Positions 241 through 14,707 of a stretch of DNA of 14,707 bases are shown here, piece by piece; positions within the stretch are counted from its first letter, which is position 1, and each line of letters opens with the position of its first letter. The notes beneath the pieces were generated by a model. It was not told the DNA's origin. It made no database searches and worked only from the letters and a program-made list of their open reading frames with translations. The stretch comes from Desulfobacterales bacterium. Its GTDB lineage: Bacteria; Desulfobacterota; DSM-4660; Desulfatiglandales; Desulfatiglandaceae. The stretch is taken from the NCBI GenBank assembly GCA_022013615.1, contig JAKLQB010000232.1, positions 1 to 14,707 of the forward strand. The letters are read 5' to 3'. Made by a program: the position numbers and the translations under genes.

Positions 241-1758
241 TTAAGGGCTTTCGGTACGCTCAAAGGGAAGCCAAACAGTGAAAGAAGAGCCCTTACCGAG
301 CTCGCTTTCAACCTCGATACGACCGTGATAAAAATCCACAATACTTTTCACAATGCTCAACCCAAGCCCTGTCCCGGTAATGGACCTTGTCTCCACTCTT
401 TTTTCACGAAAAAATTCGGAGAAGAGGCGGTTTTGACCCTCTTTACTTATGCCGATTCCCGTATCGGCGACAGATACCCCGACATAGGGTCCGTCCTGTT
501 CCGCGGTAATCAGCACACTGCCACCCTCCTTGTTGTATTTGATAGCATTACTCACCAAGTTGTTAAACAGTCGTATCAATTCTTCGCGGTCAGCATGGAC
601 AGAAGGTAACTCGTCAGGGACTTGTACTTCAAGGCGGATCTGGTTCTGGTTGGCAAGTGGCTGCATGAGTTCCCCGACCTCTTTCAGAACAATGTGGATG
701 CTTTGGGCCGTTATTTCGCGTCGTACTGACCCTGCTTCCATGTGCGCCACGTTTAGTAAATCACCGACCAGATCCACTAACGCCCTTATGCGCTGTTTTG
801 ATCGCTTAATGAATTCACGTTGTTTTTCCCTGTCTTGCACGTACCCCTCGCCTATCACTGACAGGTAACCGTCTACGGCCGAAAGGGGAGTACGCAGTTC
901 ATGGGCTACCATATTCATAAATTGTGCTTTCACCTGCTCAACACGTTTAACCTCGGTAATGTCTCGCAGAACCGTGACTGTGCCCAGGAATTGTCTAGAA
1001 GCTACATCCACAACGGGGGCTACGTTAGCAAGCACCCATGTTTCTTCCGGTTTAGAGCTGAGTTTGACCTCGTTTGACAAACGCTTTTGCTGCTTTGAGA
1101 CCTTGGAGATCATCTCCACCAAATCCCCACACTCCAACACCTCACTCACCGGTAAAGGTATCCGGACAGATTGGACAGGGGAGAGGATCTTGAGAGATGC
1201 AGGATTATATAGTACCAACACTTGTTCTGCATTGCATACCATCACCCCGTCAGCCATGCAGTCAATGACTGTACGGAACTGGCTCTTTTCGGTTACCAGT
1301 TCAAGCATGCGCTGGCGACGCTCGGCCTCAAGACGATTCCGCTCGCGAATCAGACGCACCCGCTCCAGGGCCCGATCCACCAAACGCAAGAGTTCGTCCG
1401 GGGCAAAGGGTTTGGCGATGAAATCATAAGCCCCGCGTTTGGTGGCTTCGACCGCAGCTTCTATCGTGGCATAGGCCGTTATCATAACAAACACAGTTTC
1501 CGGCGCTATCTCTTTAGCCTGGAGAAGAAACTCAAAACCACTGATGCCTGGCATCCGCAAGTCAACCAGTACCAGGTCCACATCCGGTTGCTGGCGCAGT
1601 ATTTCCAGTCCCCTTTCGCCCCGCTCGGCCTGTAGGACTCTGTGGCCTTGAGATCGAAGCACACGATCGCACCCACGTCGAATACCTGCTTCGTCATCGA
1701 CCACAAGGATTTTGTGGCTTTCGGCTTGGTTCAGTTTGTTTGCACGATCATCAGTCAT
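241..1758 (-). CDS. Soluble response regulator-histidine kinase: receiver, PAS, HisKA, HATPase
   Basis: Cytoplasmic protein of 505 residues without membrane helices. An N-terminal receiver has Asp21/Asp22, phospho-acceptor Asp66 in VLVDLRMPG, Thr94 in MITAY and Lys116 in IAKPF; its MITAYATIEAAVEATKRGAYDF stretch resembles NtrC-type receivers. A charged helical linker (about 120-160) leads to a PAS-like domain (about 160-270, ending in TVLRDITEVKR). The kinase part follows, with His286 in MVAHELRTPL, NNLVSNAIKYNKEGG, DTGIGIS and GTGLGLSIVKS. Two adjacent ATGs (1761 and 1758) follow AAAGGTG; the second has the better spacing. An upstream kinase, perhaps the Cache kinase before it, could phosphorylate Asp66 and so control this kinase. 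The output partner is not in the window. Confidence 0.92.
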   Translation of the reverse strand: MTDDRANKLNQAESHKILVVDDEAGIRRGCDRVLRSQGHRVLQAERGERGLEILRQQPDVDLVLVDLRMPGISGFEFLLQAKEIAPETVFVMITAYATIEAAVEATKRGAYDFIAKPFAPDELLRLVDRALERVRLIRERNRLEAERRQRMLELVTEKSQFRTVIDCMADGVMVCNAEQVLVLYNPASLKILSPVQSVRIPLPVSEVLECGDLVEMISKVSKQQKRLSNEVKLSSKPEETWVLANVAPVVDVASRQFLGTVTVLRDITEVKRVEQVKAQFMNMVAHELRTPLSAVDGYLSVIGEGYVQDREKQREFIKRSKQRIRALVDLVGDLLNVAHMEAGSVRREITAQSIHIVLKEVGELMQPLANQNQIRLEVQVPDELPSVHADREELIRLFNNLVSNAIKYNKEGGSVLITAEQDGPYVGVSVADTGIGISKEGQNRLFSEFFREKRVETRSITGTGLGLSIVKSIVDFYHGRIEVESELGKGSSFTVWLPFERTESP

Positions 1759-1880
1759 CATAAACACCTTTATTTGTAAAAGAAAAACAGCATATGCGCT
1801 CACAAAATCAGCAGGCCCGAAGTACACTCCGGTATAATGTGTCTTACTCTTGTCTCATGGATCGGACCGGCGACTCCGTG
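1759..1880 (-). other. 122-base intergenic stretch between the two left-hand kinase genes
   Basis: This is the widest gap in the array. It contains an 8-base palindrome, GCATATGC, and the ribosome binding site AAAGGTG beside the next start. I see no convincing terminator with a T run and no clear -35/-10 pair on the minus strand, though a promoter for the last gene could be here. Confidence 0.4.
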
Positions 1881-3857
1881 TCATCCTGTATTATTATCAA
1901 GCAGGGTATCTGGCACGGGCAATGTAAAAATGATGTCTATCCACTCATTATACACGCCTTCCGCATGGATGTCTCCACCATGGCGGCGAATGATTTCACG
2001 TGTGATAAACAATCCCAATCCGGTTCCCGTCTTCTGTTCCGAGTCTGCCGGTGGTTGGAGGCGGGAGAATTTTTTGAACAAATTATCTATTTGATCGGGT
2101 GGGACACCCGGACCGTCATTCCAGACGTGGAGATCGGCTTTCCCGTTGCCCCATTGCCCCGATAGCCGCACAACACCATCTTTCCGGCCATATTTGGCCG
2201 CATTGCCCAGCAGGTTTTCGTATACAATCTGGAGAAGCGAAGGATCGGCCTGAACGAACAGGTCATCCTGGAACTCAACCTGCACCCGTATTCTTCTTGC
2301 ATCAAGCCGTCCCCGAAAATTGCTCAGCACAGGACGAATCACGTCCGATTCTATATGCACAGGCCGAGCACGCACCTGTAGTTCGCCTTTTTCTATTCGG
2401 GAAAGATTGAGATAGTTAAGTATCATCTCTTCGGCCCTGTTTATTGCCTGCGCTACGTCGTCGAGGGCCTCTTTTTGATCTTCGCTGATTTTGCCAATAT
2501 ATCCGTCATGCACGGCAAGCAGATTGATTTTCATCGCTGCAACCTGGTTCTTTAGCTCATGTGTTATAAATTCCAGGGCATCAAGGTAATTCTGCACCCA
2601 CTGTTTTAGTTCTGTTGCCGTGTGCTGGAGATCATCGCGGCTGCTTTTCAACTGTTCGTTGCGCTCCTTTAGCGAACCGACCATCTGGTTAAACGCGCTT
2701 GTAAGGCGGTTAATCTCGTCTCGTTCCGCTCCCGGTGTATGGGGTAGCTGATAGTCAAGATTGCCGCGCGAAACCTCGGCTGCGCCGGCTGTCAGTTGGG
2801 TCAGGGGCCGGGCCAACCGAGCAGCCAACCAAAAAGAAAGAAAAACAGTACATATAAACGCAAGAACGGCAACCACAATGAATAGGGTCATGGCCTGTCT
2901 GCGCATATCGTCATAACGTTTTTTCAATACACCTACGTATAACATGCCGACTATTTCGTCTTCTATGTTTCGTAAGGGTTCGTATGCAGAAATGTACCAG
3001 CTGTCAACCACAAAGGCGGGGCCTGTCCATGTCTTCCCTTCACCCAGAACCTTATCATAGACTTCCGCGGAGACACGTGTGCCTATAGCCCGTTTCCCGT
3101 CCGGGCCTATTACATTCGTCGTAATACGCACATCACCCTGGAATATGGTGACGGTGCCTAAGTTCTTTCCGCCATAGGTCGCGACCGTAAAGACATTTTC
3201 TCGCACGAAATCCACGAAGTCGAAATTCTGGTTAATCACAGTCCCCAAACGGACAATGCCCGTTACTTGCTTGCTTTCATTTATTATTGGTGCAGCGGCC
3301 TCAAGCACCATTGCTTCGGCGATTTCTTGTGGCCCTCCGGGTTTTGCATGTGGTGTAGGCAGCACGCGAATCCGCGTGCGCTCTGCCAATACACCGTTCT
3401 TTGTGGTCAAGGCTTGTAAGGGGAGAAGCGAAAGGCCGGCTGCCGGTTTGTGTTCAAGAAGCACACGTGTAATGACGGGGCTGTTAGACGCCTGAGCACC
3501 CTTGTTATCACCATAGGCAGTCGCCACGATAATGCCGCGGCCGTCCAAGACATGCAGGAAATCATACCCGCACTTAACACGGAGATCATTCAGAACACCG
3601 GGGTCAACCGCCCGATTGGAGGATAACTTCTCGGCTATATCCCCCTCTGCCATCACCATGCATGCCTTTAGGGCCTCGTCCAGACGTCGCTCCCACATGG
3701 CACGAGCGGTTTTCAGTCCTAATACAACCCGGCGCTCCGCTTCCCGGATGACCATCCGGTTGATGAGGAAGCTTCCGGCCACTATCGTAAGAGCACCGGA
3801 AAGCACGACTACGCCGACAAAGGCGCCAAGCAACCTTGTACGTAAAGGCAGGTCCAT
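1881..3857 (-). CDS. Membrane histidine kinase: Cache-type sensor, HAMP, HisKA, HATPase
   Basis: Sensor kinase of about 658 residues from the ATG at 3857, which has GGGAG five bases upstream; a longer reading from 3905 would overlap hypE. TM1 is at about 10-34 and TM2 at about 322-345. The large segment between them is probably extracytoplasmic and looks like a double Cache fold (FLHVLDGRGIIVAT, TVTIFQGDVRITTNVIGPDGKRAIGT, SAYEPLRNIEDEIVGMLYVGV). HAMP follows (about 345-400), then His433 in FITHELKNQ. The ATPase boxes are ENLLGNAAKYGRKDG, DGPGVPPDQ and GTGLGLFITREI. The residue five after the His is Gln rather than the usual Pro, but Asn at +4 is kept. It lies 41 bases after hypE and 122 bases before the next kinase gene. 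The ligand is unknown; small organic acids are common for Cache domains. Confidence 0.92.
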   Translation of the reverse strand: MDLPLRTRLLGAFVGVVVLSGALTIVAGSFLINRMVIREAERRVVLGLKTARAMWERRLDEALKACMVMAEGDIAEKLSSNRAVDPGVLNDLRVKCGYDFLHVLDGRGIIVATAYGDNKGAQASNSPVITRVLLEHKPAAGLSLLPLQALTTKNGVLAERTRIRVLPTPHAKPGGPQEIAEAMVLEAAAPIINESKQVTGIVRLGTVINQNFDFVDFVRENVFTVATYGGKNLGTVTIFQGDVRITTNVIGPDGKRAIGTRVSAEVYDKVLGEGKTWTGPAFVVDSWYISAYEPLRNIEDEIVGMLYVGVLKKRYDDMRRQAMTLFIVVAVLAFICTVFLSFWLAARLARPLTQLTAGAAEVSRGNLDYQLPHTPGAERDEINRLTSAFNQMVGSLKERNEQLKSSRDDLQHTATELKQWVQNYLDALEFITHELKNQVAAMKINLLAVHDGYIGKISEDQKEALDDVAQAINRAEEMILNYLNLSRIEKGELQVRARPVHIESDVIRPVLSNFRGRLDARRIRVQVEFQDDLFVQADPSLLQIVYENLLGNAAKYGRKDGVVRLSGQWGNGKADLHVWNDGPGVPPDQIDNLFKKFSRLQPPADSEQKTGTGLGLFITREIIRRHGGDIHAEGVYNEWIDIIFTLPVPDTLLDNNTG

Positions 3858-3898
3858 ACTATCTCCCTTGGTCGTATCCCAAAAGAAAACTGGATTAT

Positions 3899-4912
3899 TT
3901 AACAAATCCTGGGCAAAAGTTCCCCCCTGGGTAAAAAAACTATTCTCCTGGTGCCAATGAAGGTCTCAAGTAAAACCCGGGGTCTATTCCGGCTAATAAC
4001 TTCTCCAATAATAGCCGCGTCCTTTCCCAAAGGATCGTCTCTCATCACTTCCAGTACCGAATGAGCGTCCTCTCCGGCCACAAAGGCTATCAATTTCCCC
4101 TCACAGGCTATATGCAGGGGGTCCAGCCCCAGCATTTCACAGGCAGCCCTCACTTCGTCTTTGATAGGAATAGCCTTTTCTTCGATCACCATCTCCACTC
4201 CGGACTGTAAAGCAATCTCATTAAGTGCAGTGACGACACCTCCCCTGGTAGGGTCTCTCAACACATGGATGTTTTTACTTTCTTTAGTCATACGCGAGAC
4301 AAGATTATTCAATGGGGCACAGTCACTTAAAAGATTACTCTCAAATTGGAAACCCTCCCTTTGAGAAAGCACAGCGATCCCATGATCGCCAACAGTCCCA
4401 CTCAAGATGATCCTATCCCCCACCCTGGCATTACCGCCCGAAATATCCAGATCACCATCAATACTTCCTATCCCGGCGGTATTAATAAAAAGCCGGTCTA
4501 ATGAACCTCTTTCCACCACCTTGGTATCCCCGGTGACGATCTGCACCCCTGTCTGCCTGGCCACCCTTTCCATAGACTTGATCACTTTTTTCAGGGTATT
4601 TAATGAAAACCCCTCCTCAATTATCAAAGACACACTCATATATAAGGGCTCGGCCCCTACCATAGCCAGGTCATTTATTGTTCCACAAACGGCCAGTTTC
4701 CCGATATCCCCCCCGGGAAAGAACAGCGGTTTCACCACATATGAGTCAGTGGAAAAGGCCAGTCTTTTGCTCTTCAAATAAAGGCGGGCCGCATCATCCA
4801 ATTCCTTTAATACGGGATTATCAAAGGTGGGAAGTAATAACTCCTTGATTAACCGGTAAGAGAGCTCGCCGCCGCCACCATGAGCAAGTAATACCTCATC
4901 AGGACCTTTCAT
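3899..4912 (-). CDS. hypE: HypE, carbamoyl dehydratase forming the cyanide ligand
   Basis: HypE dehydrates the HypF-delivered carbamoyl group on its C-terminal Cys to thiocyanate and donates CN to HypD-bound iron. From the ATG at 4912 it has 337 residues, a normal length. Motifs: AHGGGGELSYRLI near the N-terminus, FSTDSYVVKPLFFPGGDIG, GTINDLAMVGAEPLY, VTGDTKVV and RDPTRGGVVTALNEIA of the PurM/SelD-like ATP-binding fold. It ends exactly in PRIC with the acceptor Cys last. A 20-residue longer reading from 4972 would overlap hypD and is not family-like. hypE overlaps the hypD stop by four bases. With hypF interrupted, HypE would lack its carbamoyl donor unless another hypF exists. Confidence 0.96.
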   Translation of the reverse strand: MKGPDEVLLAHGGGGELSYRLIKELLLPTFDNPVLKELDDAARLYLKSKRLAFSTDSYVVKPLFFPGGDIGKLAVCGTINDLAMVGAEPLYMSVSLIIEEGFSLNTLKKVIKSMERVARQTGVQIVTGDTKVVERGSLDRLFINTAGIGSIDGDLDISGGNARVGDRIILSGTVGDHGIAVLSQREGFQFESNLLSDCAPLNNLVSRMTKESKNIHVLRDPTRGGVVTALNEIALQSGVEMVIEEKAIPIKDEVRAACEMLGLDPLHIACEGKLIAFVAGEDAHSVLEVMRDDPLGKDAAIIGEVISRNRPRVLLETFIGTRRIVFLPRGELLPRIC

Positions 4913-6000
4913 ATTTCTTTCCTTCCATAATGGTAATAGGCGGCACAACTTCCCTCCAGAGATACCATACAAGGCCCTATTGGATGGTCAGGATGACAAC
5001 CCTTGCCAAAGACTTTACAGTCTGTAGGTTTCTTTATGCCCCTCAATATCTGGCCGCAGATACAATCTGGATGTTCATAATCTTTTCCTTCCGGGATATC
5101 AAAATGATCTTCTACATCGAACATCTTATACTTATGTGTCAACCTTAAGCCGCTCCCGGGAATGATTCCCATACCCCTCCAATTCGCATCACATCTCTCA
5201 AAAACCTCATCCATCAAATCAAGGGCAACCGCATTCCCCCCTTCAGAAACCCCTCTTTTGTATTGAATCATAACCTGACTCTCACCATCTTCTTGCTGGG
5301 AGACTAACATGAGTATTGCCTGCAGAACATCCGTGGGCTCAAAACCGGCGATTACGCATGGTATTCTATAATCTCGAGTTATAAACCGGTAGGGATTCGA
5401 GCCGATGATGGTGCTTACATGGCCGGGACAGATAAAACCTTGCAGGTTTATTTCTCCCATATCTAACAAAGCCTTCATGGCGGGGGGAATCAGTTTGTGG
5501 AGACACAAAATGAAGAAGTTTGAAAGGTGCATCTTAAGGGCCGAAGATACGGCACAGGCAATGGTAGGGGCGGTAGTCTCAAAGCCAATGGCCAGAAGAA
5601 CCACCTTCTTTTGGGGATTCTTCCTGGCAATCTCAACGGCGTCCAGCGAAGAGTAAATGACCCTGATATCACTTCCTTTTGCCCTCTCCTTTTCCAGGCT
5701 TGATAAACAGCCGGGAACCTTAAGCATGTCCCCAAAAGTAGCCAGGATCACCCCATCCGTTTTTGCTATGCTGATAGCCTTATCCACATCCTGCGTTGAG
5801 GTAACACAGACGGGGCAGCCAGGGCCTGAGATCAGGTTTATCTTGTCTTTGAGAAGTTCTTTGATACCACTTTTGAATATGGTAACAGTATGTGTTCCAC
5901 AGACCTCCATGAAATTGAGCTTCTGTGAATTGAAGGCCTGGATCTTACTCACCAATGCCTCGGCCAGGCTTCTATCCCTGAACTCGTCAAGATATCTCAC
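4909..6000 (-). CDS. hypD: HypD, Fe-(CN)2CO assembly scaffold with [4Fe-4S] cluster
   Basis: HypD holds the Fe-(CN)2CO unit with HypC while the cyanide and CO ligands are added. The 363 residues match the usual length. Key motifs: Cys34 in FMEVCGTHT, Cys62 and Cys65 in GPGCPVCV, GFETTAPT, GFICPGHVSTIIG and AGFEPTDVL. The cysteine-rich C-terminus (CICGQILRG, DCKVFGKGCHPDHPIGPCMVSLEGSCAAY) is where the [4Fe-4S] cluster is bound. The start is GTG at 6000, six bases after GGAGG, overlapping hypC by 14 bases. The stop overlaps hypE as ATGA. No defect is visible. Confidence 0.96.
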   Translation of the reverse strand: MRYLDEFRDRSLAEALVSKIQAFNSQKLNFMEVCGTHTVTIFKSGIKELLKDKINLISGPGCPVCVTSTQDVDKAISIAKTDGVILATFGDMLKVPGCLSSLEKERAKGSDIRVIYSSLDAVEIARKNPQKKVVLLAIGFETTAPTIACAVSSALKMHLSNFFILCLHKLIPPAMKALLDMGEINLQGFICPGHVSTIIGSNPYRFITRDYRIPCVIAGFEPTDVLQAILMLVSQQEDGESQVMIQYKRGVSEGGNAVALDLMDEVFERCDANWRGMGIIPGSGLRLTHKYKMFDVEDHFDIPEGKDYEHPDCICGQILRGIKKPTDCKVFGKGCHPDHPIGPCMVSLEGSCAAYYHYGRKEI

Positions 6001-6205
6001 TTATCTCCTCCAGTAACCTCAGGGACTCATTGGCCGCATCTTCATCAATTTTTTTGATGGCAAAACCGGCGTGCAGAAGTACGTAATCTCCTACCCGGAC
6101 ATCGGGTGTGAGATAGAGTTCGATTTCCTTGCTTAAACCACCGATTTCGATCAGCCCTCTACTATCTTTAATTTCAACTACCTTCACTGGAATAGCCACG
6201 CACAT
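5987..6205 (-). CDS. hypC: HypC, hydrogenase maturation chaperone
   Basis: Small chaperone of 72 residues that, with HypD, carries the iron with CO and CN ligands to the large subunit. The essential N-terminal Cys is in MCVAIPVKV, so the start must be the ATG at 6205; this puts the Cys at position 2. A longer in-frame reading from 6226 would bury it. The central strand pattern and GDYVLLHAGFAIKKIDEDAANESL are typical of the family. AGGAG lies eight bases before the ATG, inside the end of hypF, whose TAG is one base upstream. Its 3' end overlaps hypD by 14 bases. Confidence 0.95.
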   Translation of the reverse strand: MCVAIPVKVVEIKDSRGLIEIGGLSKEIELYLTPDVRVGDYVLLHAGFAIKKIDEDAANESLRLLEEISEIS

Positions 6206-6206
6206 C

Positions 6207-7718
6207 CTAAAAGCTCCTTGCCGCAATCACAGCCTGGCCTAATGAAATCCCACCGTCATTGGAAGGAACCCTCTGATGAAAGAAAGGTTCAAACTGGTTT
6301 TCTCTTAAAACATGCAGGATTTCTCTGAGCAACAATCTATTCTGAAATACTCCACCGCTTAAGGCAACTTTATTCAACCCATCTTTCTCCCTTATTTTTT
6401 CGCAGACACCCAGGGTGAAACTGGCCACTGTCTGATGAAACTTGGAAGAGATAGTTGGGGTTGGCACTTCTTTTTGCAAATCCTCAATAATTTCCCTTAT
6501 GATCTCCCATGTGTCCACACACAGCCGGTCATCTTCCTCTAAGAAATTCCACCTATAACAATCCTTGATCTCTTCCCCGGCTGCCATCTCCAGTTCAATG
6601 CCCGCCTGGCCCTCGTAACTGATGGAATCCCTTACCCCTATTAATGATGAAACTGCGTCGAAGAGCCTGCCACAACTTGAGGTTAACGGAGAGTTGAACT
6701 TCCTTTTTAATTGTTCAATGATAATCATTACTTCTTTTTTATCCAACCGGGCGAGAAATTCCAAATCTAAATGGAGGCATTCCTCCCCCAGGAGGCAGTA
6801 GAGAAAACTCAAGGCCATACGATAGGGATGCCTTACTGCGGCATCCCCACCGGGCATGGGAGTGTACCTGAGATGGGCCCATCTCTTAAAGCCCAAATAA
6901 TCAGCTACCAGGAATTCACCGCCCCATACCTTGCCATCAGTTCCCAATCCCGTTCCGTCAAACGCAATGCCTATGACCTTTTCATCCAGTCCGTTTTCAG
7001 CCATACAGCTTGCAATATGGGCATGATGATGCTGTATGGCCAGAAGTTTCTTATCGGTCAACCCCTCGGCATATCTTGTAGAAAGATAGTCAGGGTGCAG
7101 GTCATGGGCTATCACCAGGGGATCAATTCGAAAGAATTCCTGAAAATGGGAAATGGCATCCTTGAAGAATTCATAAGCATCCAGATTCTCCAGATCCCCG
7201 ATATGCTGGGAAACGATGTAAAAATTGTCCTTTGACACACAGAAGGTATTCTTTAGTTCTGCCCCACAGGCAATGATCCCCGGAGATGGAATGGAAAGAT
7301 AAAGGGGCTGAGGGGCAAAACCCCGTGACCTTCTGATCAGTCTCTCAGCGCCTTCTTCTACCCAGCCTACCGAATCGTCACACCTGAGGTGAATATCCCG
7401 GTCATGAATCAAGAAAAAATCGGCCAATCCCTTAAGCCTGTCCAGAGCCTCCTGGTCATTTATCACAATGGGTTCTTCACTGAAGTTTCCACTGGTCATC
7501 ACCAGGGCCAAAAATGAGTTCTTAAGCAGAAGATAATGAAGTGGGGTATAGGGAAGCATTACCCCCAAGTAGCGGTTACGGGGGGCAACCATAGGGGAGA
7601 TCGTCGAATCGGATTTCTTTGCAAGCAGCAGGATCGGCCTTCTTGAATTGGTCAGGATTTTCTCTTCATCAGGGTTTACATAACAATATTTCTTTACCGA
7701 TTGGAGATCGTAGGACAT
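6207..7718 (-). CDS. hypF: HypF C-terminal portion (rest of YrdC-like domain and Kae1-like carbamoyltransferase domain)
   Basis: If translated separately from the first ATG after the internal stop, this gives 503 residues; the open frame itself begins at 7763. It contains the remainder of the YrdC-like domain (TSGNFSEEPI, FLIHDRDIHLRCDDSV, RRSRGFAP) and the Kae1/TobZ-like domain with its metal-binding HHHAHIASCMAENG, FDGTGLGTDG, WGGEFL, LSGGVFQN and the C-terminal PSNDGGISLGQA. All motifs are intact. The ATG at 7718 is an internal Met of the family (PFAIM) and has no ribosome binding site at working distance, since AAGGAG at 7753-7758 is 34 bases away. Independent translation therefore looks poor. 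The stop codon lies one base before hypC. Confidence 0.8.
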   Translation of the reverse strand: MSYDLQSVKKYCYVNPDEEKILTNSRRPILLLAKKSDSTISPMVAPRNRYLGVMLPYTPLHYLLLKNSFLALVMTSGNFSEEPIVINDQEALDRLKGLADFFLIHDRDIHLRCDDSVGWVEEGAERLIRRSRGFAPQPLYLSIPSPGIIACGAELKNTFCVSKDNFYIVSQHIGDLENLDAYEFFKDAISHFQEFFRIDPLVIAHDLHPDYLSTRYAEGLTDKKLLAIQHHHAHIASCMAENGLDEKVIGIAFDGTGLGTDGKVWGGEFLVADYLGFKRWAHLRYTPMPGGDAAVRHPYRMALSFLYCLLGEECLHLDLEFLARLDKKEVMIIIEQLKRKFNSPLTSSCGRLFDAVSSLIGVRDSISYEGQAGIELEMAAGEEIKDCYRWNFLEEDDRLCVDTWEIIREIIEDLQKEVPTPTISSKFHQTVASFTLGVCEKIREKDGLNKVALSGGVFQNRLLLREILHVLRENQFEPFFHQRVPSNDGGISLGQAVIAARSF

Positions 7719-7763
7719 TATGGCAAAGGGCTTAGATGTCCTGAGCTTTCTTCTCCTTAATTT

Positions 7764-8513
7764 TTATATGGCTTTATCATTTTCCGCATCACATGCAAGG
7801 TGAAATCCCCCTAACCCCTTAACGGCTATTATACAACCTTCTCGCAGAAGTCTTATGGTCTCTTGTATCGGGTCAACACCCATTATCTCCTCATTTTGGT
7901 CCCAAAGCATCAGTCGGGGACCGCATCGGGGACATGCGTTGGGCTGTGCGTGGAACCGCCTGTTCAAAGGATCCTGATATTCCTTCAGGCAGGCAGGGCA
8001 CATGGTAAAACAATCCATCGTGGTATTCTTCCGATCATAGGGAATATCACGGGTGATGGTAAAACGGGGCCCGCAGTTGGTGCAGTTGATGAAGGGGTAT
8101 AGATACCTTCTGTCGTGGGGATCGAATAATTCTCGAAGGCAATCTTCACAAATACCAATATCAGGAGAGACCGGGACAAACTGGCCTTCAGTCTTATGGC
8201 TTTCTCTTATTTCGAACTTATCATATCCCAGAAGAGGAAGATGATCTCGGACTTCTATCCTCTCAATGTGGGCAAGGGGAGGGGCGGATTCCCTGACTTC
8301 CCTCAGGAATTCTTCTACACTTTCCCTTTCACCTTCCGCATCTATAACCACCCCTCCGGAGGAGTTACAAACCCACCCTGATAGGCCGCATTTGTGGGCA
8401 GACCTATAGATGAAAGGGCGAAATCCCACCCCCTGAACTATTCCCATTACTTCAATGGAGAACCGGCTTATATCCCCATGGTTTTTTGCTTCGCTTGTCT
8501 CCATGCCCACCAT
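7764..8513 (-). CDS. hypF: HypF N-terminal portion as translated to the internal TAA
   Basis: This 249-residue product would hold the acylphosphatase-like domain (about 16-105), with its catalytic Arg32 in VQGVGFRPF and Asn50 in WVCNSSGGV. Next come the two zinc-finger segments: CEDCLRE with NCTNCGPRF, and CPACLKEY with ACPRCGPR. It ends with only the first strands of the YrdC-like domain (IIAVKGLGGFHLACDAEN). It would stop inside that domain, so the product should not carry out carbamoyl-adenylate transfer alone. The zinc and acylphosphatase parts show no damage. Confidence 0.8.
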   Translation of the reverse strand: MVGMETSEAKNHGDISRFSIEVMGIVQGVGFRPFIYRSAHKCGLSGWVCNSSGGVVIDAEGERESVEEFLREVRESAPPLAHIERIEVRDHLPLLGYDKFEIRESHKTEGQFVPVSPDIGICEDCLRELFDPHDRRYLYPFINCTNCGPRFTITRDIPYDRKNTTMDCFTMCPACLKEYQDPLNRRFHAQPNACPRCGPRLMLWDQNEEIMGVDPIQETIRLLREGCIIAVKGLGGFHLACDAENDKAI

Positions 8514-8537: not shown

Positions 8538-8996
8538 TTAGTTCACTTCTCTTAAAACAGATTCAATTATATTGGGAGCCGCCCTCTTCAGTTCCTGGGA
8601 AAGACCTATTCCCCGGCCGAGGTCCTTGGGTTGAATGCCAAAGATAACTACCTCCGGGGATACCCCGAGAAGAGAAGCCAGGCGTAAAACCTGAGGCAAT
8701 CCTACTTCATGCAAAGAAAACTTTACTTTATCATTTACCTCATCTATCTCCTGGGGGGTAAATCTCTTCACCGTTCCGGGTTCCTTCCCCATGTCCACGG
8801 CATCAACGAAGACCACTTTAGGGGCTTGTCTCATTAGATCAACCAGACCCAATCCTCTGGTTCCGGCATCAAGCACCTTAACCCCTTCAGGCAGTCTCAG
8901 TTTCTCCAGTTCATGGACTATATGTGCTCCTATGCCATCGTCTTTCATCAGGGGATTGCCTACCCCCAGAATAAGCACCCTATATCTAATTGAGAT
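8538..8996 (-). CDS. [NiFe] hydrogenase maturation protease (HycI/HyaD/HybD family)
   Basis: Endopeptidase that removes the short C-terminal peptide of the large subunit once nickel is inserted; here the substrate is probably HydA. Family signatures: LGVGNPLMKDDGIG at the N-terminus, VFVDAVD with a metal-binding Asp, and SLHEVGLPQ with the metal-binding His. IFGIQPKDLGRGIGLS is also typical. About 152 residues, a usual length. The start is uncertain: an ATG at 9131 would add 45 residues without family resemblance and overlap the kinase by 101 bases. The good ribosome binding site instead points to ATC at 8996 or ATT at 8990, and GTG at 8978 would begin just at the core strand. The gene sits 24 bases before hypF. 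Confidence 0.88.
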   Translation of the reverse strand: MSIRYRVLILGVGNPLMKDDGIGAHIVHELEKLRLPEGVKVLDAGTRGLGLVDLMRQAPKVVFVDAVDMGKEPGTVKRFTPQEIDEVNDKVKFSLHEVGLPQVLRLASLLGVSPEVVIFGIQPKDLGRGIGLSQELKRAAPNIIESVLREVN

Positions 8997-9004
8997 CTTT
9001 GTTT

Positions 9005-9009
9005 CTCCT
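9005..9009 (-). promoter_or_regulatory. Ribosome binding site that decides the maturation protease start
   Basis: AAAGGAG lies on the minus strand just after the stop of the upstream kinase (9031-9033). Eight bases downstream is ATC (8996), fourteen bases downstream is ATT (8990), and the first ordinary start in frame is GTG at 8978, 26 bases away. The site therefore favours a rare ATC or ATT start. Confidence 0.5.
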
Positions 9010-9030
9010 TTAAGAATGAATTGTAACCCT

Positions 9031-10944
9031 TCACTGTTGCTGGTTATCCGTCTCAGTGGCCGTGGGGATCTCTTTAGCTTTCCGTGTCTTAGGAAAGGTA
9101 AGGATAAACTCAGTGCCCTTTGCTTTATCACTTTTTACACTTATTGTGCCCCCGAGTGTTTCCACTACTTTCCTGACAAAGGGCAGACCCATACCCCTTC
9201 CATAAGGGTCCATCTCTTTGGCTTTCTGGGTCCGGAAGAATTCATCAAATATCTTGGGGATATCCTCAGTATCTACTCCGATCCCCGTATCCTTAACCCT
9301 GAGGATCACCTGGTCATCTGAAGCCGAAAGGCCTAAGGAGATGGTTCCACCGTCCGGTGTATACTTGATGGCATTGGTGATCAGATTATTGAGGATCTTC
9401 TCCATGTCTTCCTCGGTCCCCATCAGGTTGAGTTCCTCATCAGGTAATTCAACATTTATGCTCAATCCTTTTTCCTGAGCGCTTGTTTTAAACAGATCAA
9501 CCGCCCTTTGTATCTGCTCTTTTATCGACAGGGGAACCCATTGAACGTCGGGCTTCCGTGATTGCCACTGGTAGATGTCCAGCAGTCCTTTCGATACGTC
9601 CATAACGGAATCTATGCGCCTGGACATTCGCTTCATCAGCTCTTCCTGCTTTTCTGTCAGGCCTCCCACATACCCTTTCAGCATGACGTCCAGAAGACCC
9701 TGGATGGCCATTAATGGGCCTTTCAACTCATGAGTCATCATCATGACGAATTCGCTTTTGGCCTCATCCTGTTTCTTCTGGGTATCATAGATCTTTGCAT
9801 TTTCAATGGAGACAGCCCCCTGGCTGGACAAGGCTCCGATAAAATCTAGTTCATTCTGGCCGAAAGTTCTCCTCTCACCGGTATACAGGCGCAGTGTCCC
9901 GATGACTTTTTCTCTTCCCATCAAGGGAAAAGACAACATGCTTACAATTCCCTCTTTGCGGGCATCCGCCGGATATTGAACCGCTGGGTCAGTAGAGGCA
10001 TCCAGAACAAAGTGGGGCTCTCCTCCCAATGCCTTTGCGAGGCTCTTGTCGGCATCTACCGGTCCCTTATTTATGTAAGCCTCGCTCAATCCACAGGCAG
10101 ACGCCAGCTCCAGCAGATTTGTTCTCTCGTCTAATAGCCGTAGGGTAACCCCTTTGAGCCCCATAATCTTCATGATACTGTGGCAGATAAGGTTAAGTCT
10201 TGGATAAAACCCAAGAGTAGAAGTGGTATCTTTTGCAAGCTGATTCAGTAACCCAAGCTGCTGATTGGCCTGCTCCAGCTTCTCTTGAAGTTTCATAAAC
10301 TCCAGTATCTTCTCCCTCACGCGCCTAAACAATAGCAGGACAATAGAGATGGAGACATAAAGCACCGTGTTGAAAAATAAGAGAAGCATCAGAACAAAAA
10401 AGGGATTGTCTTGTACGCCCCGGGATATGAAGGATGAGCCATGCATATGGGCTAAATGGCCTGTCAATTCCAAAAGGGCTATAGTGGTGATCGTGAGGGC
10501 GATTAAGGAGGCATAGACCAGACAGGCGCGTCTTTCCAGTAGGACCCCGCTTAGAATCACATGAAAAAGGAAATAAAACAGGAGAGGACTTGCAATGCCC
10601 CCGGTGTAGTGGAAAAGGAGGGTGATGAAGACCCAGTCTATGGCAAACTGAAAACAGGTAAACCTGTGAACAATGCTTGTGTCCGGGGAAGGAACTCTCT
10701 TCTTGAGGGCAAAGAAGTAATAATGGAAAAGGGCATTTAACAGGACTACTATGGCGCAAATCGAAAGAACTTTAAGCGCAGGAATATCAAGGCGGATAAG
10801 CCGGTTACCTGTGAAGGTGGCCAGGATGACCACCCCCAAGAGGACCCACCTTAAAAGGATCCACCACCTCTGTTTCGAGAGAGGCCCCTCCCAGACAATT
10901 TCATAAGATAAGGCCCCTGTTCTCTGGGGGACAGGCTTTCCCAT
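9031..10944 (-). CDS. Membrane histidine kinase: six TM helices, GAF, HisKA, HATPase
   Basis: Sensor kinase of 637 residues. About six hydrophobic helices lie between residues 26 and 207. The third and fourth flank TGGIASPLLF (114-123), which resembles the GGxxNPF quinone-site motif of RegB/PrrB kinases. A short helical linker (208-235) leads to a GAF-like domain (about 240-385), then the DHp helix with His405 in MMTHELKGPL. The ATPase domain has NNLITNAIKYTPDGG (N box), DTGIGV (G1) and GRGMGLPF (G2), all intact. The Thr/Asn expected four residues after the His is Gly, so phosphatase activity may be weak. It begins 8 bases after the receiver gene. The ligand is unknown; a redox or quinone signal is an inference from the motif and the hydrogenase context. 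Confidence 0.92.
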   Translation of the reverse strand: MGKPVPQRTGALSYEIVWEGPLSKQRWWILLRWVLLGVVILATFTGNRLIRLDIPALKVLSICAIVVLLNALFHYYFFALKKRVPSPDTSIVHRFTCFQFAIDWVFITLLFHYTGGIASPLLFYFLFHVILSGVLLERRACLVYASLIALTITTIALLELTGHLAHMHGSSFISRGVQDNPFFVLMLLLFFNTVLYVSISIVLLLFRRVREKILEFMKLQEKLEQANQQLGLLNQLAKDTTSTLGFYPRLNLICHSIMKIMGLKGVTLRLLDERTNLLELASACGLSEAYINKGPVDADKSLAKALGGEPHFVLDASTDPAVQYPADARKEGIVSMLSFPLMGREKVIGTLRLYTGERRTFGQNELDFIGALSSQGAVSIENAKIYDTQKKQDEAKSEFVMMMTHELKGPLMAIQGLLDVMLKGYVGGLTEKQEELMKRMSRRIDSVMDVSKGLLDIYQWQSRKPDVQWVPLSIKEQIQRAVDLFKTSAQEKGLSINVELPDEELNLMGTEEDMEKILNNLITNAIKYTPDGGTISLGLSASDDQVILRVKDTGIGVDTEDIPKIFDEFFRTQKAKEMDPYGRGMGLPFVRKVVETLGGTISVKSDKAKGTEFILTFPKTRKAKEIPTATETDNQQQ

Positions 10945-10952
10945 GGAGCCAT

Positions 10953-11363
10953 TCAGCCCTTCTGGATCAATTTCTTGACCTTTTCAAGCAACGCGTCAAA
11001 CCGGATCGGCTTCTCCACAAATTCATCTACTGGTAGATAGTCTTCATCGTCCTCAGGAGAGAATTTCATATGCATCTTCTCGGATATACCTGTAATCATG
11101 AGAATGGGAATGTTTGAATACTCCCTGTACTCGGATTGTGGGTCGCGGCTTCTGAGCTGCCGGGAGACCTGAAATCCTTCCGTTATTGAATCCATCATCA
11201 CGTCAAGGATAATAAGATCCGGAAAGACTTCTTTTGTCAGCCTGAGACCCTCGGTACCATTTCCAGCGCTGAATACCTGGTAATCGTTGGCCTCCAGGGT
11301 AATCCGCATGCTCTCAACCAGATCAGGGTCATCATCAATAACAAGAATTTTTGGTTTTTCCAT
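10953..11363 (-). CDS. Single-domain response regulator (CheY-like receiver)
   Basis: Receiver protein of 136 residues with no output domain. Visible landmarks: acidic triad DDD at 10-12, phospho-acceptor Asp54 in LIILDVMM, Thr91 in ILMITG, and Lys118 in FVEKP. A stretch after Thr91 (about 95-112, with PEDDEDYLP) is longer and more acidic than the usual CheY loop. It follows hydA by 25 bases and is separated from the next histidine kinase by 8 bases, so the kinase is its likely partner. Without an effector domain it must act by protein contact, as a phosphate sink, or as a relay step towards another protein. The receiver call is firm; the partner is inferred from position. Confidence 0.92.
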   Translation of the reverse strand: MEKPKILVIDDDPDLVESMRITLEANDYQVFSAGNGTEGLRLTKEVFPDLIILDVMMDSITEGFQVSRQLRSRDPQSEYREYSNIPILMITGISEKMHMKFSPEDDEDYLPVDEFVEKPIRFDALLEKVKKLIQKG

Positions 11364-11388: not shown

Positions 11389-12675
11389 CTAAAGGAAAAT
11401 ACAATGGGTAGAACATGAAATACAAGGATCGTATGCCCTGACGAGCATTTCCGCCATGAGTTCTATCTCTTCTTTCGGCCTGTCTTTTATTTCAGGGACT
11501 AAGGTCTCCAGGTCTTTCTGGATATTTGCATGGTTCTGGTTAGTAGGAATAACACAGTTGGCCCAAACGCATTCACCATCCTTGTTGTACTCATATTCGT
11601 GGAACAGGATGCCCCTGGGAACCTCAGTGGACCCGCTCCCCCTTCCAGCCCGAATGGAGACCGAAGGTTTTTCGTCCTTAATTCCATTATTCAGCACATC
11701 ATCTATCAGCCGGATCGATTCTTCCACGCTATGGACTACTTCCACAAGTTGCGCGACATTGTTCATAAATGGATTGTGGCTGGTAGGCTTGAGCCCAAAG
11801 GCCTCGGAAACCCCTTTCGCCTTGGGCGTCAACTGGTCATAGTTTAGGTTCAATCTGGCAAGGGCACCCACCATATAGGAATCCCTCTTATTTTTGGTGA
11901 ACTTGGCCGTGGACTGAGGAACTAAGTATTCATTGGTAACCTCCTTGTATTGATCCACAGGCCATGTACCCCCATCCGTGGACGCGATATCTCCGTCATA
12001 AAGGGCATATTCATCAGGATGCGTCAGGCCGATAAACTCGGTTTCCCTGGTAAACTGAGGAAGTTTGCCCGCAAGATCCTTGATAAGGGATGCCACAGCC
12101 TCCACGTCCGGCACACAGTCTGCCAGTTTCTGCCGCAATGTCTCCATCTCTTCCACTGTGGGCCATTTCGTGAATCCCCCCACCACGGGTCGTTGCGGAT
12201 GGGTTGTGCGGCCTCCAAGCAGGTCGGACATCTCATTGGCCAGGCGATGGATCTTGACTACGCGAAGTACATGTTCGGTATGTGAGGATGCCAGAGGTAC
12301 AACGCTGGGGACCCCGGCGAGATCCGGAAGTACAAGATACCCTAAATGAAGGATATGGCTCTGCAGGTTTTCAGCGTGCATGAGGAGCCTTCGAAATTTC
12401 TCCGTCTGCTCAGATAAGGTTACACCCATGGCCGCCTCAGTGGCCTTCAATGATGTTAGGGTATGCCCAATGGAGCAGATACCGCAGATCCTCGAGGTGA
12501 TGTGGGCAACTTCGTACCATTTGCGTCCCCGGAGCATTGCCTCGAAAAACCGGGGCGCCTCCACAACCTGCCACTGACACTCCTCTACTCTACCATCTTT
12601 TATCTTTATTAAGATATTCCCATGCCCCTCTACACGCGTCACGTGGTTTACCTTGATGACCTTTTCACCGTTCAT
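11389..12675 (-). CDS. hydA: Group 3b [NiFe] hydrogenase alpha (large) subunit
   Basis: Catalytic subunit of 428 residues that binds the NiFe active site and splits or forms H2. The N-terminal motif is VNHVTRVEGHGN, followed by the first Ni-binding pair in RICGICSIGHTLTSLKA. The second pair is at the very end in DPCISCSTH, so all four Cys ligands are present. After the terminal His only CIFL remains, which fits the very short peptide removed by the maturation protease in Pyrococcus-type enzymes. The start ATG overlaps the hydD stop as ATGA, with GGAGG seven bases upstream. Gene order and the flavin partner favour group 3b over 3c or 3d. Maturation would use the protease and Hyp proteins encoded downstream. 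Confidence 0.95.
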   Translation of the reverse strand: MNGEKVIKVNHVTRVEGHGNILIKIKDGRVEECQWQVVEAPRFFEAMLRGRKWYEVAHITSRICGICSIGHTLTSLKATEAAMGVTLSEQTEKFRRLLMHAENLQSHILHLGYLVLPDLAGVPSVVPLASSHTEHVLRVVKIHRLANEMSDLLGGRTTHPQRPVVGGFTKWPTVEEMETLRQKLADCVPDVEAVASLIKDLAGKLPQFTRETEFIGLTHPDEYALYDGDIASTDGGTWPVDQYKEVTNEYLVPQSTAKFTKNKRDSYMVGALARLNLNYDQLTPKAKGVSEAFGLKPTSHNPFMNNVAQLVEVVHSVEESIRLIDDVLNNGIKDEKPSVSIRAGRGSGSTEVPRGILFHEYEYNKDGECVWANCVIPTNQNHANIQKDLETLVPEIKDRPKEEIELMAEMLVRAYDPCISCSTHCIFL

Positions 12676-13412
12676 TTTGCCACCTCCGAAAATCCGGTAT
12701 AAAGTCGAAAATTCCCAAGCACATCCTGTACACTCAGCCCATACTTGGCAAGGATCTCCCTCTGGGAATCGACATTTGGGTTATCCACAAGACCCCGGCA
12801 TCCCCAGCAAAAGCTTCCTTCTATAACGCAACACGACCCGCAGCCCGCACGGGTAACCGGCCCCATACAGGTCATCCCCTTCTCGAAAACGCATAAATTT
12901 TCAGCCATCTTACATTCCACGCATACAGGATAGTTAGGGATCTCGGGTTTTTTCCCCAGTAGTAAGGCCTTAACCACCGTTGTGAATTCCTTGCGGTTTA
13001 TGGGGCATCCAGGGATTTCAAAATCAACCGGAACCACTGCTTTAAGAGGCCGGGCCGGATCGGTCTCGTAAAGCATAGCCTTGTCTCCATAAACGAATTT
13101 TCTGTAATATTCCGGAGCATGAAAGTTTTTTATACAGTTAATCCCGCCCAGCACAGCACATGAGCCAAGGGCAACCAGGACTTTGGCGTTCGTGCGTATC
13201 TGGTTGAGCCGATCCTCGTCAGAGCCACGAGTGATTGAACCTTCAACAAAGGCGATGTCATAATCGTCAGAGTGTTCCTTCGTTGCCTCTCTAAAACTTA
13301 CTATATCCACTGCCGCAACCACTTTTAAAAGATCCTCTTCCAGATTTATTACCTGGAGTTGACATCCCTCGCAACTGGCAAAATCAAAGAATGCTACTCT
13401 TGGTTTTTCCAT
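12672..13412 (-). CDS. hydD: Group 3b [NiFe] hydrogenase delta (small) subunit
   Basis: Small subunit that carries the proximal [4Fe-4S] cluster beside the NiFe site, plus further clusters leading electrons to the beta and gamma subunits. An N-terminal FFDFASCEGCQLQ holds the CxxC of the proximal cluster. VALGSCAVLGGINCIKNF and VPGCP-like EIPGCPINRKEF supply its other ligands. The C-terminal part is Cys-rich: CVECKMAENLCVFEKG, CMGPVTRAGCGSCC and GSFCWGCRGLVDNPN, as expected for additional cubane clusters. There is no Tat signal peptide, so the enzyme is cytoplasmic. The ATG at 13412 lies eight bases after GGAGGAG and overlaps the hydG stop as TGATG. A GTG one codon upstream (13415) is a possible alternative. 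About 246 residues, normal for the group. Confidence 0.93.
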   Translation of the reverse strand: MEKPRVAFFDFASCEGCQLQVINLEEDLLKVVAAVDIVSFREATKEHSDDYDIAFVEGSITRGSDEDRLNQIRTNAKVLVALGSCAVLGGINCIKNFHAPEYYRKFVYGDKAMLYETDPARPLKAVVPVDFEIPGCPINRKEFTTVVKALLLGKKPEIPNYPVCVECKMAENLCVFEKGMTCMGPVTRAGCGSCCVIEGSFCWGCRGLVDNPNVDSQREILAKYGLSVQDVLGNFRLYTGFSEVAK

Positions 13413-14248
13413 CACAGCGCCTCCTCCAAATCAAAGATGTCCGTGTATCTAAACACCGGCCCATCCTGACAGACATAGACATGATTGATCTGGCAATGGC
13501 CACACTTGCCCAGCCCGCATTTCATCCTTCTCTCGAGAGATAGGAATATCTGTGTATCCGGTATGCCCTTTGCCTTGGCCTCTAATATTACAAATCGATA
13601 CATCACAGGAGGGCCAACAACAATACAGTATGTCTTGGACGGATCGATATCAATCATTGGGAAAAGGGTGGTTATCACTCCTATATGCCCTTTCCAGGTA
13701 TGGTCTGGTCGATCCACGGTTTCCAGGTATTTTATATCTTTTCTGCTCCCCCATTGATCGAGTTCATCGAGAAAGAGCCGTTCAGATGGGTTTCTGGAGC
13801 CGAAAAGGATGGTCACCTCTCCATACTCTTCCCGGTGTTCCAGGACAAAATTTATAAATGATCTCAACGGAACCAGCCCTATTCCACCGGCCACAAACAG
13901 GAGATCCTTTCCTTTGGTCTCTTCTACAGGAAAATGGGTACCAAAGGGACCACGTATCCCCACCGTATCCCCTGTTACAAGGTTGTGTACAGCATTGGTG
14001 AGGTTTCCGACCTTGCGAATAGCAAGCTCAAAGGAGTTCGTCTCTCGCGGAGCAGAGGAGACCGATATGGGGGCCTCCCCAATGCCCATCACAGATAACT
14101 CAACAAACTGTCCTGGATTGTGGCCCAGGGACTCTCCACTCACAAGATGCATCTCAAAGAGCTTCTCACTCTCCGTGAGATCCTCGATTCGAGAGATTTC
14201 GGCCCATCTCGGTAGATAAGGAGAAACTTCGGGAACGCTTTGGTTCAT
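13412..14248 (-). CDS. hydG: Group 3b [NiFe] hydrogenase gamma subunit, FAD/NAD(P)-binding with [2Fe-2S] cluster
   Basis: Flavoprotein of 278 residues, related to PyrK and the ferredoxin-NADP reductase family, that exchanges electrons between NAD(P)(H) and the iron-sulfur chain. Domains in order: an N-terminal FAD-binding barrel (about 10-105) with EAPISVSSAP and a GDTVGIRGPFGTHFP segment; a nucleotide-binding domain (about 110-225) with the loop FVAGGIGLVPLRSF and a later VGPPVMYRF; and a C-terminal [2Fe-2S] loop with Cys in KCGLGKCGHCQI followed by YVCQDGPVF. The C-terminus DIFDLEEAL is typical of the family. It starts after a strong ribosome binding site and its stop overlaps the small-subunit start. 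NADH versus NADPH preference cannot be read from sequence by eye. The symbol follows the Pyrococcus hydrogenase and is unrelated to the [FeFe] maturase HydG. Confidence 0.93.
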   Translation of the reverse strand: MNQSVPEVSPYLPRWAEISRIEDLTESEKLFEMHLVSGESLGHNPGQFVELSVMGIGEAPISVSSAPRETNSFELAIRKVGNLTNAVHNLVTGDTVGIRGPFGTHFPVEETKGKDLLFVAGGIGLVPLRSFINFVLEHREEYGEVTILFGSRNPSERLFLDELDQWGSRKDIKYLETVDRPDHTWKGHIGVITTLFPMIDIDPSKTYCIVVGPPVMYRFVILEAKAKGIPDTQIFLSLERRMKCGLGKCGHCQINHVYVCQDGPVFRYTDIFDLEEAL

Positions 14249-14265
14249 GGCAGATCACCTCCTTA
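14249..14265 (-). promoter_or_regulatory. Strong ribosome binding site for hydG
   Basis: Reading on the minus strand, the hydB stop codon TAA runs directly into AAGGAGG, nine bases before the hydG ATG at 14248. This near-perfect Shine-Dalgarno fixes the hydG start and suggests high expression with translation close to hydB. Confidence 0.8.
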
Positions 14266-14707
14266 TTTTTCAGTTTCTTTTAACCTGTTAAACGCATCCA
14301 CAGGGTCGGCAATATCCGGTAGACAGGATGAGGCACATCTGCCGCATCCCACACATGCCACATCATCCAGTACCTTGAAAAGGTACAGGCCCTTTCGGAA
14401 GAAACGATGACGGTACCTTGAGGCCCTGGTCTCACGGAAATTTTCACCGGTGGCAACCCTGGCAAAATCCTGAAGCAGACAACCATCCCAGCGACGGAGC
14501 CGTTCTCCGTTGATGAGATCCAAGCCCATATCATCATGCACGTCAAAGCAGTAACAGGTCGGGCAAACCAGGTTACACGTCCCGCAACTCAAACACTTAC
14601 TCGCTTTTTCTTCCCAGAATAGACTTCCTTCAGAATGCTCTAACAGTTGAGGTATCTCTCTTTTGGGAAAGGTCAGGCTCCTTTTCTTACACATGTTCGA
14701 AATCTGA
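14263..14707 (-). CDS. hydB: Group 3b [NiFe] hydrogenase beta subunit, 4Fe-4S protein (C-terminal part; gene runs off the right edge)
   Basis: Iron-sulfur subunit that passes electrons between the flavin subunit and the rest of a cytoplasmic NAD(P)-linked hydrogenase. The visible part has two cysteine clusters: CLSCGTCNLVCPTCYCFDV, with extra Cys residues after the C-x2-C-x2-C-x3-C core, and CVGCGRCASSCLP nearer the C-terminus. Between them lies an RRWDGC...FARVATGENFR region typical of this subunit. There is an ATG at 14694, but the frame stays open to the window edge. Family members are usually over 300 residues, with an N-terminal domain before these clusters, so this is most likely only the last ~147 residues. 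The stop lies 14 bases before the gamma-subunit start. The family call is strong; the exact role as beta rests on gene order. Confidence 0.85.
   Translation of the reverse strand, partial: QISNMCKKRSLTFPKREIPQLLEHSEGSLFWEEKASKCLSCGTCNLVCPTCYCFDVHDDMGLDLINGERLRRWDGCLLQDFARVATGENFRETRASRYRHRFFRKGLYLFKVLDDVACVGCGRCASSCLPDIADPVDAFNRLKETEK

Follow-up and report, generated by a model that had tools for sequence, protein, structure and literature searches.

The hypF gene in the window, the whole stretch of 14,707 nucleotides analysed here, is interrupted by a single in-frame TAA. We are highly confident that this codon is a lone nonsense difference, that hypF is otherwise sound, and that the change has no function of its own. 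An error of the consensus or of base calling in the contig is given an even chance as its source. That the sampled strain really carries a null allele of very recent origin is a serious possibility, though short of an even one. All other explanations, taken together, are improbable. The coordinates of the features are collected in Table 1.

Table 1. Features of the interrupted hypF gene, its neighbours in the window, and short hypF-like frames in other genomes.
Feature	Position	Strand	Basis or remark
[NiFe] hydrogenase subunits resembling sulfhydrogenase HydA, HydD, HydG, HydB	11389-14706	-	best family matches, all below their own cut-offs
Hydrogenase maturation protease	8538-9131	-	TIGR00072, 148 bits (cut-off 47.45); listed ORF, match from residue 53
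Upstream hypF piece, 249 aa: acylphosphatase, HypF zinc fingers, start of YrdC	7764-8513	-	TIGR00143, Pfam
In-frame TAA, hypF codon 250	7764-7766	-	translation; residue in this column in 120/120 homologues listed
K256-x-R258, putative KxR of the YrdC KxR...SxN tetrad	7740-7748	-	alignment; between the stop and the internal Met
Internal in-frame ATG, codon 266	7716-7718	-	no Shine-Dalgarno, anti-SD duplex +1.1 kcal/mol
Downstream hypF piece, 518 codons and TAG: remaining YrdC, Kae1-like carbamoyltransferase domain	6207-7763	-	TIGR00143, Pfam
hypC, uninterrupted	5987-6226	-	TIGR00074, 81.3 bits (cut-off 48), positions 1-69 of 80; listed ORF, true start probably inside
hypD, uninterrupted	4909-6000	-	TIGR00075, 474 bits (cut-off 192.8)
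hypE	3899-4912	-	family model; ends PRIC then TAA, internal control for TAA termination
C-terminal-only frames in G773, G672, G579, G612, G455, G591, G637, G628, G560, G761			second genome search

The gene lies on the minus strand (8513 to 6207) and was translated in one frame of 769 codons. Apart from the terminal TAG, the sole stop in this frame is codon 250 (TAA, 7766-7764); no frameshift or second internal stop was found in the translation of 6207-8513. The original prediction had placed the TAA at 7764-7766, followed by 15 skipped residues and an internal Met 16 codons from the stop, and translation showed all of this to be right. Codons 251-265 read KLRRRKLRTSKPFAI, and the Met is codon 266 (7718). 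The full-length HypF of about 767 residues that had been foreseen needs a slight correction: the gene has 767 sense codons besides the internal TAA, and the homologues P0001, P0002, P0003 and P0005 have 768 residues.

The upstream piece matched positions 1-227 of TIGR00143 (2e-90) and the downstream piece positions 229-740 (6.9e-155), a match that exceeds the model cut-off alone. With 1-227 and 229-740 covered, one model column is lost. In Pfam, the upstream piece matched PF00708, two stretches of PF07503 and positions 2-29 of PF01300. The downstream piece matched positions 31-178 of PF01300 together with PF17788 and PF22521 (both Kae1-like subdomains). Taken together, the two pieces carry the acylphosphatase, zinc-finger, YrdC and Kae1-like domains in HypF order. 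Judged from the sequence, the in-frame homologous continuation of 518 codons past the stop is not a product of chance. Motif residues of HypF were putatively assigned to K256/R258, S341-G-N343, HHHAH 495-499 and the Asp in NDGG 752-755. The claim that only one codon is wrong is borne out by the single missing TIGR00143 column and the lack of a second lesion in hypF, and the zinc-finger, acylphosphatase and Kae1-like motifs, described earlier as intact, are all present.

A protein search with the read-through HypF as query scored 7998 candidates, of which the best 120 are listed. P0001, the closest among the matches listed, is an unbroken protein of 768 residues with 99% identity that represents a cluster of 19 member sequences. 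P0002 (93% identical) and P0003 to P0005 (83-85%), also among the matches listed, are unbroken as well. Alignment with relatives at the stop column, a check proposed earlier, gave a sense residue in every one of these best 120 of 7998 homologues. The column is variable, with eleven kinds of residue (K28 A21 S15 N14 E10 R9 T7 D6 Q4 G3 L3); the five nearest homologues have Glu or Lys. A list of best full-length proteins is biased towards unbroken genes, and searches with the separate pieces are a fairer test of the stop. The best match listed for the N-terminal piece was 63% identical. With the C-terminal piece, the seven matches above 75% identity had lengths of 742-783 residues; a single short match stood near those seven, P0241 (75%, 403 aa), which lies on a 1562-base contig. 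Neither piece search gave a close relative with the same break among the matches listed, with the proviso that 90% clusters may hide shortened members and that the window's own pieces have no separate entries there. Among genome contigs only L001 and L002 were found as relatives (44-45%). Viral contigs held no relative of hypF and plasmids gave no match. The best identity among the full-length places listed in two genome searches was 52%.

Stop aside, the window HypF differs from P0001 in six residues (positions 3, 4, 6, K247, V426 and E731). Positions 3, 4 and 6 also vary in P0002 and P0003. K247, V426 and E731 were found in 17, 5 and 13 of the 120 homologues listed, respectively, and no window residue in a scorable column was absent from these 120; the stop and 14 codons in poorly covered columns, where the N-terminal differences are taken to lie, were left unscored. 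A random missense change would land on a residue seen in homologues in 43% of cases, and three of three would do so by chance with a probability of ∼0.08. This is a weak sequence-based hint that the changes at positions 247, 426 and 731 passed selection. All three scorable missense changes hit residues that homologues also have, so nothing points to a contig rich in errors overall. Nor is there a sign of long decay of hypF, and the stop is the sole blemish. Nonsense changes make up 5.4% of the amino-acid-changing single-base changes in hypF, so in the absence of selection one stop among the seven differences from P0001 would have a probability of about 0.3. Five residues of P0001 unseen in the other 119 homologues had been considered as a contrast and were dropped, the window having all five. 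The stop must postdate the split from P0001 or not be real. Base error and very recent inactivation, two of the options raised in the original prediction, both survive on the same three grounds: the unbroken 99% homologue, the lack of a second lesion and the scorable missense changes on residues seen in homologues.

The frequency of broken hypF genes was estimated in genomes. The first genome search gave 184 places in 168 matching genomes, with the best 150 of 184 listed, and the second, of 387 genomes, gave 142 places in 130 genomes with a match. Stops were flagged at none of the 150 places listed of 184 and at two of the 142. A flagged stop in G523 lies before the first Met and was not counted. 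At the places inspected in the 130 matching genomes, two broken hypF-like genes were found (G648 and G720). In G648 (L016:1882-4178), hypF consists of two overlapping ORFs of 330 and 451 aa with a frameshift near residue 330, and a HypD-like ORF follows; the frameshift may itself be an assembly error. In G720 (L017, minus strand), a C-terminal hypF-like stretch contains an inner in-frame TAG. By eye, a transposase-like stretch precedes it in the same frame and a HypC-like frame lies downstream. As a lower bound, broken hypF copies occur in roughly one per hundred matching genomes or more, and at such a frequency no special mechanism is needed. Ten of the 142 places, each an open frame of 362-429 aa, match the query at about residues 392-767 and nowhere else, which suggests that one-domain HypF-like proteins occur, and are not rare, in the genome group of the second search.

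The surroundings of hypF look undamaged. The cluster on one strand comprises HydB, HydG, HydD, HydA, a response regulator, a histidine kinase, the protease, hypF, hypC, hypD and hypE, the response regulator and histidine kinase being labelled by eye from the ORF list. Model matches extend over most or nearly all of the length of hypC, hypD, hypE, the protease, HydA, HydD and HydG, in keeping with the earlier statement that these hyp genes, the protease and the visible hydrogenase motifs look undamaged; HydB is cut by the window edge. No interruption was seen in the other genes of the window, the kinases and response regulator being judged from ORFs only. Flanking the hydrogenase and hyp genes and in their midst, at 241-3905 and 9031-11363, inspection by eye showed a response regulator and three genes that look like histidine kinases, one of which has a receiver domain. 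HypA and HypB are usually needed for nickel insertion; neither hypA nor hypB was recognized by eye among the listed ORFs of the window.

Could the two pieces act as a split HypF, the 249-aa piece cooperating with a 503-aa piece from Met266, or the second piece acting alone in the manner of HypF1? The internal ATG lies 16 codons past the stop and is the only ATG, GTG or TTG within the first 57 codons past it. However, the 20 bases upstream of this ATG form an anti-Shine-Dalgarno duplex of only +1.1 kcal/mol. The values at hypD, the response regulator, HydA, HydD and HydG were -9.3 to -14.3, and eight other listed starts, some of which are probably not true starts, gave -5.5 to +0.1, with a weak -2.4 at the start of hypF itself. 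Just past the stop there is a purine-rich AAGGAG, but it was discarded as a start signal because no start codon is suitably spaced from it. Lys256 was found in 120/120 and Arg258 in 119/120 of the homologues listed. Matched with the help of a TsaC sequence, this pair presumably corresponds to the KxR of the YrdC tetrad. A KxR...SxN catalytic tetrad is described, in a passage of PMC9654439, for the YrdC domains of TsaC and HypF. The solved HypF 4g9i has Thr in place of that Lys. As both residues lie between the stop and Met266, neither of the pieces made by stop and restart would contain them, and with no ribosome-binding site in addition, a restart at Met266 is unlikely to help function. Short C-terminal-only HypF-like genes do occur (10 of 142 places in the second genome search), and C. 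necator has a one-domain HypF1, for which a passage in PMC9100943 suggests a possible gain of function at higher oxygen. Against this, the same source states that HypF1 seemed inactive anaerobically, and part of PMC5350229 reports that an E. coli hypF mutant was not complemented by HypF1, although production of the protein was not established. No split close relative was found among the matches listed. We therefore consider a split HypF very improbable. An older pseudogene, its role taken over by another hypF copy in the genome, has similarly little in its favor. Two near-full-length matches were indeed found in G040, G373 and G329 (among the matches listed for the 168 matching genomes) and in G448, G623, G736, G745 and G772 of the 130, the second copies in the latter five being 28-32% identical. 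The window hypF, on the other hand, has no second lesion and no scorable residue unseen in homologues, and hence no sign of decay, and it still lies between the protease and hypC in an uninterrupted cluster.

In a functional read-through of the UAA, an amino acid would be inserted at codon 250 and some full-length HypF would be made. In favor of such a mechanism, frame and homology are intact for 518 codons and the stop column tolerates many residues. Yet no close homologue listed has the same break: a residue stands at this place in 120/120 listed, and the piece searches gave no conserved stop, within the reach of 90% clusters. For three RNA stretches located at the stop or beyond it, folding yielded z values of -0.66, -0.65 and +0.89 against shuffles, i.e. 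no stimulating structure more stable than shuffled sequence was found after the hypF stop. The window contains no tRNA gene and no Rfam family. Within the same operon, the hypE model match extends to the final model position and the gene ends PRIC then TAA, with the C-terminal cysteine directly before the stop. The carbamoylated residue of HypE is the C-terminal cysteine, as stated in a passage of PMC10321239, so efficient TAA read-through would extend HypE by 29 residues, to its detriment. There is likewise no sign of a genome-wide reassignment of TAA within the window, where no other gene was seen interrupted and TAA ends hypE. Other TAA-interrupted genes had been named earlier as a sign of recoding, and none was seen in the window. 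The read-through option of the original prediction is thus not supported by the homologues, the RNA or the end of hypE. Low-level read-through of the UAA in hypF is possible, but a functional one is highly unlikely. It is just as hard to credit that in at least one strain the UAA in hypF is translated to give catalytic full-length HypF while hypE is still ended, with maturation limited by leaky termination.

Once the stop is passed, the window HypF has the same domain order, motifs and length as HypF (TIGR00143; structures 3vth, 4g9i and 3tsp), and the 99% identical P0001 matches solved HypF chains. The difference from HypF is the in-frame TAA itself, which leaves no single uninterrupted chain with all HypF domains in the gene as written. 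The nearest known short form is the truncated HypF1 of Cupriavidus necator, likewise shorter than a usual HypF. That protein consists of one of the three domains, as described in parts of PMC9100943 and PMC5350229. By contrast, the window gene is cut inside the YrdC domain with all coding sequence still present, so that the architecture differs. The hypF of G648 is similar in that one visible lesion disturbs a gene that can otherwise be read, but there the lesion is a frameshift near residue 330 and in the window it is a stop. Among the titles and abstract openings listed for hypF premature stops, hypF pseudogenes and bacterial UAA read-through, none described an interrupted hypF.

Where a lone stop is seen on one contig while near-identical relatives are intact and nothing else is damaged, it is not to be called recoding. 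If the TAA is real, translation would end after 249 residues and the YrdC domain could not form. HypE would then remain without carbamoylation, and the [NiFe] hydrogenase of the strain would stay unmatured, unless another hypF exists. The sampled strain would in that case have lost [NiFe] hydrogenase maturation only very recently.
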